Source of the DNA: Spirochaetaceae bacterium | Lineage (GTDB): Bacteria; Spirochaetota; Spirochaetia; WTKD01 | Length of the DNA stretch: 43,500 nucleotides | Assembly (NCBI GenBank): GCA_011524535.1 | Contig: WTKD01000006.1 | Coordinates: 1-43,500 of the forward strand | Direction of reading: 5' to 3' | Shown: positions 33,261 through 35,914 of the stretch, piece by piece | How the letters are laid out: every line of letters starts with the position of its first letter | Numbering within the stretch: the stretch's first letter is position 1 | Program-made: the position numbers and the translations under genes | Notes under the pieces: generated by a model | Told to the model about the DNA's origin: nothing | What the model saw: the letters and a program-made list of their open reading frames with translations, nothing else | The model's database searches: none

Positions 33261-34604
33261 TTATCGCTGTTGATGCCTCTCCTCTAACTCTTCAAGCACA
33301 TCATTCCAGCTAACCCCCTCGGCCAATAAAAGTACAAGCATGTGGTAGAGCATGTCGCTGCATTCTAAAACGAGCTCTTTTTTATCCTGCGCCAAGGCAA
33401 TTTCTATCCCCTCTTCTGCAAGTTTCTTGCGTATGACCTGAGTCCCCTCTTTCAACAAATACGTAGTATAACTACCTTCGCTTGGATTTTTTTGTCGTGT
33501 TTTAATCGTCTCCCACAAGGCTTCCATAACCGCTGCCTTATGAGGTGATGTATCATTCGAGATAATGGGCTGGCTGTCCTTGCCCGCATTACTTGGAATC
33601 TCTGCAGGAGTAGAAACAAATAGTGCATCGAATGGCGGTGCGTTCTGACTAGCCACCTCATACCACTGTAGATGATCGGCTATAGCTCCGAAAACAAATC
33701 GCTCTTTGTATACCTCTTCATAGGGAAGCACACGACCGGTTTTTTCGTGTACTACCCATAACGTTTCTTCTTCAAGTGTCTTTTTGTAGGATTTCTCATT
33801 TCCCATCGCATAGATGAGCCTTTTTCTCAACCTATCGCTGTTTCGAATAACAATGGGTTTATATTTTGTGTGTTGCTCGTTAAGCAAATCCTCGAGAGTT
33901 ATTCGATTTTCATAAATCGCCTTGCCCATGATAACACCCGATAATGATGCTTCTCCCTGCGAAAAGACCTTCCGCACATCTTCATCAGACCCAATCCCTC
34001 CCGATAAAATAACCGAAGCCCCTTGTTCCTGCGCAAGCAATGTGATCTCATTTGTTCGTGTGATATCTGGCCCTTCGAGCGTTCCATCTTTCGCAATATT
34101 GGTAAAAATTATTTGCTCTACGCCCCAAGAACATACCTGATTTACCAAGGAATTTGTTTTATATTGAGCATTCATACTCCATCCAGCGATATACGCATTC
34201 CCGTCTTTCTCATCTATCCCTGCAATAATTCTCCCCGGATACGCATGAACCCACGATTGCACTTCACGCTGAGATTTAACAAGCGCAGAGCCAACGATAA
34301 CATAATCGATTTCTAAGGCGAGTAATTCTTCAACATCTGCCTGGGTCCTCACCCCTCCACCAACTTCAAGAATCATAGACGAAGCAGATCGCATACGTCT
34401 AATAACCGAACGATTATTACCCGTAGAAAAAGCAGCATCAAGATCAACCACATGCACACGGTGTATTCCCACCGAGGCATACGCTTTTATTTGCTCTACT
34501 GGGTCTACCTCATAAAATGTTGCTTCTTCTCTTCGCCCTTTATGCAATCGGACGCATTTTCCATCCAAAAGATCTATCGCAGGAATGAGTGATTTATAGC
34601 TCAT
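33261..34604 (-). CDS. HisA-HisE fusion with a degenerate HisI-like middle
   Basis: 447 aa. Residues 1-240 are HisA, the ProFAR isomerase barrel: IPAIDLLDGKCVRL with Asp11, VGGGVRT, AGIDEKDG with Asp131, NIAKDGTLEGPD and LSGGIGSDEDV. Residues of about 358-447 are a phosphoribosyl-ATP pyrophosphatase (HisE): EALWETIKTRQ, SYTTYLLKEG, KLAEEGIEIALA and ECSDMLYHMLVLL. Between them, residues 250-335 keep the outline of HisI (KRLIYAMGNEKSYKKTLEE, then TGRVLPYEE). They lack the CDxDxD and CHTG...C residues that bind Mg and Zn in phosphoribosyl-AMP cyclohydrolase; there is no Cys at all. It overlaps the upstream DtxR-family gene by 11 bases. Three histidine steps seem once joined, with one lost. Confidence 0.88.
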   Translation of the reverse strand: MSYKSLIPAIDLLDGKCVRLHKGRREEATFYEVDPVEQIKAYASVGIHRVHVVDLDAAFSTGNNRSVIRRMRSASSMILEVGGGVRTQADVEELLALEIDYVIVGSALVKSQREVQSWVHAYPGRIIAGIDEKDGNAYIAGWSMNAQYKTNSLVNQVCSWGVEQIIFTNIAKDGTLEGPDITRTNEITLLAQEQGASVILSGGIGSDEDVRKVFSQGEASLSGVIMGKAIYENRITLEDLLNEQHTKYKPIVIRNSDRLRKRLIYAMGNEKSYKKTLEEETLWVVHEKTGRVLPYEEVYKERFVFGAIADHLQWYEVASQNAPPFDALFVSTPAEIPSNAGKDSQPIISNDTSPHKAAVMEALWETIKTRQKNPSEGSYTTYLLKEGTQVIRKKLAEEGIEIALAQDKKELVLECSDMLYHMLVLLLAEGVSWNDVLEELEERHQQR

Positions 34605-35112
34605 TGCCGGTGATCATACTCGTATAATATTTGCACATCGTACATCGGGTTTGGCGCACACAGGCTTCATTCAAGGGCACACGAATATTTGGTAATCCCA
34701 AGATGGCTTTGTTGCTTTTCAATTTTTTCACCAAGGCATTCATCCTTGTAGCAGAATCCGAACTCATTGCCTCTCCAACCCGAGAAACGATATCGTGCGC
34801 TTCGGATTCATTCATTCCAAGAATATCATAGAAAAAATCAAAAAGAGCCCGCTGATGATGCAGTATCTCCTGTGTCATTACAAACCCGTTTGGGGTAAGT
34901 GCTATGGTCCGATAGGGCTTGTGTTCTATGAGATCGCTTTTTATAAGAGAACTGAGCGCCTCTGTGACCGACGCACTCGTAACTTGTAGGGCGGCCGCCA
35001 CATCTTTTACTCTAACGGTATCCTGCTTACGGCTGATGAAATATATCGTCCGTAAATAGGCCTTCAAACTTTGCGAAAGGGTACAATGTGTGACTCTCGT
35101 GTTATATCCCAT
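34594..35112 (-). CDS. DtxR/MntR-family metal-dependent transcriptional regulator
   Basis: 172 aa. The N-terminal winged helix LSQSLKAYLRTIYFISRKQDTVRVKDVAAALQVTSASVTEALSSL, followed by LIEHKPYRTIALTPNG, is the DtxR-family DNA-binding domain. HHQRALFDFFYDILGMNESEAHDI begins the dimerisation and metal-binding helices. The usual pattern there has His and Glu/Asp ligands (HHQ...E...H). The end carries CVRQTRCTMC, an unusual Cys cluster that may bind a metal. It probably senses Mn2+ or Fe2+. AGAGAAG precedes the ATG. It overlaps the HisA-HisE fusion gene downstream by 11 bases and is divergent from the Bax-inhibitor-1 gene. Confidence 0.88.
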   Translation of the reverse strand: MGYNTRVTHCTLSQSLKAYLRTIYFISRKQDTVRVKDVAAALQVTSASVTEALSSLIKSDLIEHKPYRTIALTPNGFVMTQEILHHQRALFDFFYDILGMNESEAHDIVSRVGEAMSSDSATRMNALVKKLKSNKAILGLPNIRVPLNEACVRQTRCTMCKYYTSMITGNEL

Positions 35113-35179
35113 TCTTTCTTCTCTCTGTTGTTTTATGGTACAATGTATGACATCGTATTCTCAATGCAAGGGAGCAGTA

Positions 35180-35914
35180 ATGAACAATGTAACTGAATTT
35201 ACACGCGGTAATAACCTCGGTCAAAAACTAACACTTAGCACCGACAAAACTTTGGCTTCATCATTTTTGAGAACCATTTTCAATTGGATGGCCATAGGTC
35301 TCCTCATAACGGGGCTATGTTCGTGGGCTTTTTCAAGTATATTGATCCAACGCGGAGCGCAGCTTGGAAATCTCGCCTTGATTGGTCTCGGAGCGATGAT
35401 TGCTGACATTATTCTCGTCTTCTCTTTTGCAAGACGCATACATACCATGCGCCCTACGCAGGCACGCTTATTCTTCCTAATACACTCTGTACTCGAGGGC
35501 ATAGGTCTATCCTACATATTCCTTGTCTACACGGTTTCCAGTATCGCGACAACATTTTTTGTTTGTGCAACAACATTCGCGGTAATGAGCCTCTATGGAA
35601 TGTCAACAAAAACGGATCTCACCAAAATGCGCAGCTATTTCATTATGGGATTCATAGGCTTGCTCATCATGTCGGTTGTGAATTGGATTATCGCTTCAAG
35701 CGCCTTGTATTGGTTTATTTCAACGGCAGGGGTTGTCTTGTTCTGCGGAATTACCGCATACGATGTTCAAATGTTGCTACGACTCGGTGATGACCTAAAA
35801 AGTGCCGATCAGGCATCCTACAAAAAATATGCCTTGTTTGGCGCCTTGAAACTTCATCTCGATTTCATTGGCTTATTTTTGTATCTCTTACGCTTCTTAG
35901 GAAAAAGAAACTAA
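35180..35914 (+). CDS. Bax inhibitor-1/YccA family membrane protein
   Basis: 244 aa from the ATG at 35180, which has GGGAG six bases upstream; the open frame extends to 35090 without support. There are seven hydrophobic segments. FNWMAIGLLITGLCSWAFSS, SVLEGIGLSYIFLVYT, SLYGMSTKTDLTKMRSYFIMGFIGL and the end ITAYDVQMLLRLGDD followed by ALKLHLDFIGLFLYLLRFLG are the BI-1/YccA signature segments. Relatives include YccA, which interacts with the FtsH protease, and YetJ, a pH-gated calcium leak. It is followed two bases later by aspS and may be cotranscribed with it. Confidence 0.95.
   Translation: MNNVTEFTRGNNLGQKLTLSTDKTLASSFLRTIFNWMAIGLLITGLCSWAFSSILIQRGAQLGNLALIGLGAMIADIILVFSFARRIHTMRPTQARLFFLIHSVLEGIGLSYIFLVYTVSSIATTFFVCATTFAVMSLYGMSTKTDLTKMRSYFIMGFIGLLIMSVVNWIIASSALYWFISTAGVVLFCGITAYDVQMLLRLGDDLKSADQASYKKYALFGALKLHLDFIGLFLYLLRFLGKRN

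Follow-up and report, generated by a model that had tools for sequence, protein, structure and literature searches.

Histidine biosynthesis is a classic example of gene fusion and channelling, and it also includes a pseudoenzyme, HisZ, the dead histidyl-tRNA-synthetase-like subunit of the short-form HisG. The his gene fusions listed in one survey are hisA/hisF, hisIE, hisHF, hisNB and hisIED (PMC1963479). In bifunctional HisIE (NF002747/PRK02759), a HisI domain is N-terminal to HisE; the HisE and HisI domains form swapped dimers, and a HisI monomer is considered improbable (PMC8102479). The conserved ligands of the cyclohydrolase are three Asp, three Cys and one His, and its phosphate-binding stretches are SRS and WxKGExS (PMC8102479). 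According to the same paper, which describes the plant enzyme, the beta-grasp fold suits small-molecule binding, and AMP was bound in the HisI domain. A single sentence of the paper also refers to Spirochaetia sequences with HisA, HisI and HisE activities (PMC8102479, 2021). The HisIE of Acinetobacter passes PR-AMP preferentially to its own HisI site (PMC10242683).

Here, we describe a fused HisA-HisI*-HisE protein, in which HisI* stands for a segment of predicted HisI fold without the metal ligands. It is encoded in the window, that is, the whole stretch of 43,500 nucleotides analysed from a Spirochaetaceae bacterium (contig WTKD01000006.1). This combination is not among the fusions of the survey cited above, and a dead HisI domain was described nowhere in the literature covered by a search of limited range.

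One reading frame joins HisA, HisI* and HisE

The fused gene starts with ATG, ends with TAA and is open throughout, without an internal stop (Table 1). In the fused frame, no Met codon lies close to where the middle domain begins. The open frame and the lack of such a codon indicate that one chain is made, provided that the assembly is correct. The original prediction, made from the DNA alone, had described one protein joining HisA and HisE around a HisI-like segment, and this architecture was recovered by Pfam for the two ends and in a predicted model for the middle. It had also noticed that the gene overlaps a metal regulator gene; the overlap with the DtxR/MntR-like gene amounts to 11 bases. 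No relative of this regulator was found in the loci of the fetched relatives. A divergent Bax1-I family gene lies near the fused gene both in the window (35090-35914) and in genome G026 (L071), and Bax1-I relatives are also close to unfused copies in L038 and L090.

Table 1. Features of the fused gene and its upstream neighbour in the window
Feature	Position	Strand	Basis
hisA-hisI*-hisE fused gene	33261..34604	-	Open frame, 447 aa
HisA domain, TIM barrel, residues 6-236	33897..34589	-	PF00977, TIGR00007, motif positions
HisI* domain (predicted HisI fold without metal ligands), about residues 247-320	33654..33869	-	Match to HisI* profile (E=2.2e-22), Foldseek HisI matches, columns with little or no variation
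Linker between HisI* and HisE, poorly conserved	33522..33653	-	Low confidence at model residues 88-98; loosely constrained in relatives
HisE domain, residues 362-444	33273..33521	-	PF01503, TIGR03188, metal-ligand motif
DtxR/MntR-like metal regulator, upstream of the fused gene	34594..35112	-	Pfam; membership in the unit putative

The HisA domain matched Pfam His_biosynth with 213 bits (cut-off 23.6) and TIGR00007 of NCBIfam with 217 bits, slightly below the 229-bit cut-off. Its TIM barrel carries two Asp and a Thr (D11, D131 and T168) at the catalytic motif positions, which we take to be the counterparts of D8, D127 and T164 of T. maritima HisA. The HisE domain matched Pfam PRA-PH with 65 bits (cut-off 21.3) and TIGR03188 of NCBIfam with 83.9 bits against a cut-off of 42.7. 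It contains the EExxE...ExxD helices, with E398, E401, E414 and D417 as metal ligands by motif, following the pattern given in PMC8102479. The fusion is the only HisA of the genome, the other strong PF00977 match being HisF. It is also the only clear HisE; two weaker HisE matches sit in one 273-aa frame on C14, presumably a MazG-type protein.

The middle segment has a predicted HisI fold

Pfam gave no HisI (PF01502) match between HisA and HisE in the fused protein, and only chance matches, none to HisI, for 20 single HisI* domains. The NCBIfam HisIE model matched the fusion only via its HisE half. In many of 60 related genomes, however, a second gene 3' of hisA matched residues 241-446 or thereabouts with 31-42% identity. 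Alignment of these relatives yielded the HisI* consensus PLV....G......NEKG..KSLE..LW..HPETGRLLP....WYEA, in which K, E and W are invariant, and the window HisI* retains K271, K275, E278, W283, R291 and P294, which are conserved across the HisI* family. In whole-genome searches, a profile of 20 HisI* segments retrieved canonical standalone HisI (E=5.3e-5 in G112 and E=5.5e-4 in G145), and profile-profile comparison of HisI* with canonical HisI gave 89.9%. Against the sequences of solved structures, HisI ranked third with the HisI* profile, at an E of 1.4, which is not significant alone.

An AlphaFold2 model of the window HisI*, made from 21 HisI* sequences only, reached a pLDDT of 88.5 and a pTM of 0.77. 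The first 14 PDB matches of this model in Foldseek were all HisI or HisIE chains (probability 1.00, query TM 0.56-0.68), and the first 12 PDB matches of HisI*E were HisIE, which is the best structural match of the model. The solved HisIE structures compared were 6J22/6J2L (SfHisIE in PMC8102479) and Medicago HISN2 (7BGM/7BGN). Comparison of the predicted structure with HisI had been proposed as a check on the original prediction, and it returned a HisI-like fold, not an unrelated one. By profile similarity, the middle segment is HisI-derived by descent, beyond chance, and it is HisI-like in its predicted fold. An hhalign alignment of HisI* with HisI opened a gap of 10 residues behind the helix; we rejected this gap, since the intermediates described below and the predicted strand order favour an ungapped register.

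The active site of HisI is lost in HisI*

Residues 245-360 of the fused protein contain no Cys, no DxDxD and no CHxG motif. The ligand residues are absent from the window protein and from the HisI*E proteins tested, the C-terminal loop carrying two Cys and the His is missing from HisI*, and both SRS and WxKGExS are replaced. As originally noted, the HisI part thus lacks Cys and CDxDxD, and no HisI active site was found by alignment. Judged by these losses, HisI* is predicted to be catalytically dead, and PR-AMP cyclohydrolase activity is unlikely. HisIE and HisI*E share the position of the HisI-fold domain in front of HisE, but HisIE keeps the three Cys, the three Asp and the His, whereas the window protein has none of them, has lost the CHxG loop and carries HisA fused in front.

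In the same phylum, outside the class, HisI*E proteins are longer and less decayed and align with live HisI without gaps. An example is ETGKTWFWSRSRNSLW against the live HisI ENNVLWEYIPENGRVV; where live HisI has DCDND, remnants such as IDDENN are left close by. Six of these outer-class genomes contain the intermediate form of HisI*E, with a live HisI in each.

A separate HisI and most of the histidine pathway are encoded elsewhere

The existence of a separate HisI was the first of two alternatives offered by the original prediction. A standalone HisI was found at G000:C6:135165-135389 (E 2.9e-31), and it passes the NCBIfam equivalog cut-off (158 against 126 bits). This HisI keeps SCHVG...SCFY and has DDDQD where 23 other aligned standalone HisI have DCDxD, so that the third Cys ligand is an Asp. 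Genome-wide family searches also found HisG, HisB, HisD and HisF, which like HisI are located elsewhere, in line with the original remark that the window has no other his gene; HisH, recognised by reading only, adjoins HisF. All four genes that had been suggested for searching (hisI, hisF, hisH and hisG) are therefore present. The his genes are scattered in the genome, and the set, of which HisA, HisB, HisD, HisE, HisF, HisG, HisH and HisI were covered, is near-complete. In L070 (8418-9510), a listed MsrB-like ORF shares about 145 bases with the end of hisI; the actual start of this ORF is probably an internal one.

HisI* is widespread in Spirochaetota and under constraint

HisI* matches were obtained in 119 of 395 sampled genomes of the class (counts ignore shared ancestry); because the G020 match lies in a different protein, this number slightly overstates HisI*E. 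That protein (L192, G020:C1:2215000-2220000) is a 526-aa frame unlike HisIE with a HisI-like segment, LTNAEGLERSREEHCLWLWHPQLNELRP, and a normal HisIE is encoded elsewhere in the same genome. Live HisI was present in 57 of the 58 good-quality genomes with HisI* (again ignoring shared ancestry). A scan of genome contigs with the fused protein alone found no relative, whereas the family alignment as query did find relatives. Among the best 80 loci of the latter search, there was no HisI* outside Spirochaetota. L121, a metagenome bin from a cave, also has a HisI*E gene; the taxon in its title, Borreliella garinii, is probably wrong.

In a tree of 127 HisE domains, built on only 90 columns, HisI*E and HisIE were separated by a single branch (support 96/94), a split recovered in 98% of bootstrap trees. 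The HisE of HisI*E is thus not on the HisIE branch, and HisI*E falls outside bifunctional HisIE by this placement.

For the same pairs in family f22, dN/dS was 0.009-0.079 in HisI*, 0.060-0.152 in HisE and 0.075-0.86 in the linker. HisI* mostly changes no faster than HisE; the reverse is true of a few pairs outside f22. A domain as constrained as HisE, next to a looser linker, is good evidence that HisI* does something, and purifying selection on HisI* in the relatives is strongly supported. The window lineage is fast-evolving and has no close relative; hence, we infer constraint on the window copy from the relatives and from the invariant residues that it has kept. To judge from these sequences, a dead domain has long been kept by selection across much of the spirochaete phylum, and HisI* probably has a structural or regulatory role.

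hisA is paired with hisI*E and fused to it in two loci

In 49 of the 51 loci with both genes in view, hisA is a gene of its own directly upstream of HisI*E. The two often overlap, and in most cases they are no more than about 45 bases apart. These Spirochaetia pairs have the same domains and order as the window protein and a homologous HisI*, encoded by two genes instead of one frame. The one-chain form occurs in only 2 of the 51, the window and G026. These two fusions were united in no bootstrap tree, although a single origin was still not rejected (p-AU 0.257). A 488-aa frame of G217 was considered as a third fusion and rejected, as HisA is in another frame. Within about 1.1 kb on each side, no hisA was seen beside HisI*E in the outer class. 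Pairing with HisA is therefore probably later than the dead domain and was not the original reason for keeping it.

The same three-part order with live HisI was found in one frame of 428-458 aa in six f24 genomes and in G104 of f37 (L201-L207), where DCDRD/DCDGD and CHxG...CF are present; HisI is live there and dead in the window. The HisA of the window matched that of f24 with E values of about 1e-11 to 1e-13 and that of G104 with 4e-21, compared with 1e-50 or below for most neighbours in HisI* genomes. Because the HisA of f24 and G104 is only distantly like that of the window, the live-HisI proteins look like a separate fusion. With a middle domain without an active site and a HisA that is not of f24 type by pairwise score, the window protein does not group with trifunctional HisA-HisI-HisE. 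The Spirochaetia sequences mentioned in PMC8102479 may be of f24 type. The original prediction had called the arrangement unfamiliar. This holds for the one-chain form with dead HisI, for which a search for homologues of the same order added only G026 among the loci with both genes in view, but not more widely: HisA-HisI-HisE with live HisI exists in the same class, Spirochaetia sequences with the three activities are mentioned in PMC8102479, and dead HisI is common in the class.

Discussion

The domain order, the predicted HisI fold, the ligand loss, the presence of live HisI, the single HisIE split, the purifying selection in relatives and the hisA adjacency are all shown or strongly supported by the computation. 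We favour, with moderate confidence, an explanation in which a working HisE and a working HisA would be joined by a retained HisI* pseudoenzyme domain acting as a dimerisation or docking scaffold. A single chain would carry out step 2 through HisE (PR-ATP to PR-AMP) and step 4 through HisA (isomerisation of ProFAR), and step 3 would be left to the separate HisI. HisI* would derive from an ancestral bifunctional HisIE, whose HisI half may have lost its metal sites and yet been retained while a separate HisI covered step 3; in the window, separate hisA and hisI*E genes would then have become one reading frame. HisI* may still dimerise and hold the HisE dimer beside HisA. Perhaps it also gives free HisI a HisI-type surface, so that PR-AMP and ProFAR would pass between neighbouring active sites, but the docking of free HisI on HisI* is a guess. 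A more general proposal, which we offer tentatively, is that Spirochaetota might have in HisI* an ancient pseudoenzyme subunit whose partner is free HisI (or HisA) and which brings steps 2 to 4 into one HisE-HisI-HisA complex.

Scaffold and ligand-binding roles of HisI* predict similar conservation. HisI* could be a ligand sensor in which the binding of PR-AMP, AMP or ProFAR (phosphoribosyl or adenine nucleotides) or of another effector tunes HisE or HisA. The beta-grasp shape of HisI, suited to small molecules and seen with AMP in the plant domain (PMC8102479), and the conserved basic and aromatic residues K271, K275, W283 and R291 speak for this role, but both phosphate-binding stretches are replaced, and we regard it as rather unlikely. 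Somewhat less likely still is a plain tether, a leftover that helps the HisE half to fold or dimerise and has no partner-specific role. As HisI forms domain-swapped dimers and its monomer is improbable (PMC8102479), losing the domain could destabilise HisIE-type proteins; however, standalone HisE proteins exist, with solved structures, and HisI* is under selection of roughly the same strength as HisE, beyond what a tether needs.

Recruitment of the fused protein to another pathway, such as ProFAR or AICAR supply or sugar-phosphate chemistry, was the second alternative of the original prediction. The scattered his genes and the overlap with the metal regulator gene would agree with it. It is nevertheless highly improbable, because HisG, HisB, HisD, HisF, HisH and a separate HisI are present and the fusion supplies the only HisA and the only clear HisE, with their active-site motifs kept, all of which points to the histidine pathway. 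Retention of cyclohydrolase activity by HisI*, through a metal-independent or relocated active site, would account for the kept fold and the strong constraint, but with all metal ligands and the general-base His gone, and a separate live HisI in nearly every good-quality HisI* genome, we give this the least credence.

The retained scaffold that we favour has a parallel in HisZ, which, like HisI*, is a pseudoenzyme in histidine biosynthesis that partners a live enzyme. The fold of HisZ is unrelated to that of HisI*, and its role is established, whereas that of HisI* is proposed. Annotation may credit HisI*-type proteins with a HisI activity that is unlikely to be there. The long retention of a dead domain is more interesting than the fusion, which by itself is of modest interest. 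HisI* is joined to HisE in every case and, in one class, has HisA as a neighbour in nearly every case, while a free, live HisI persists, so that it offers a natural test of the physical coupling of steps 2 to 4. If the proposed role is true, assembly or regulation can be reason enough for a domain to persist.
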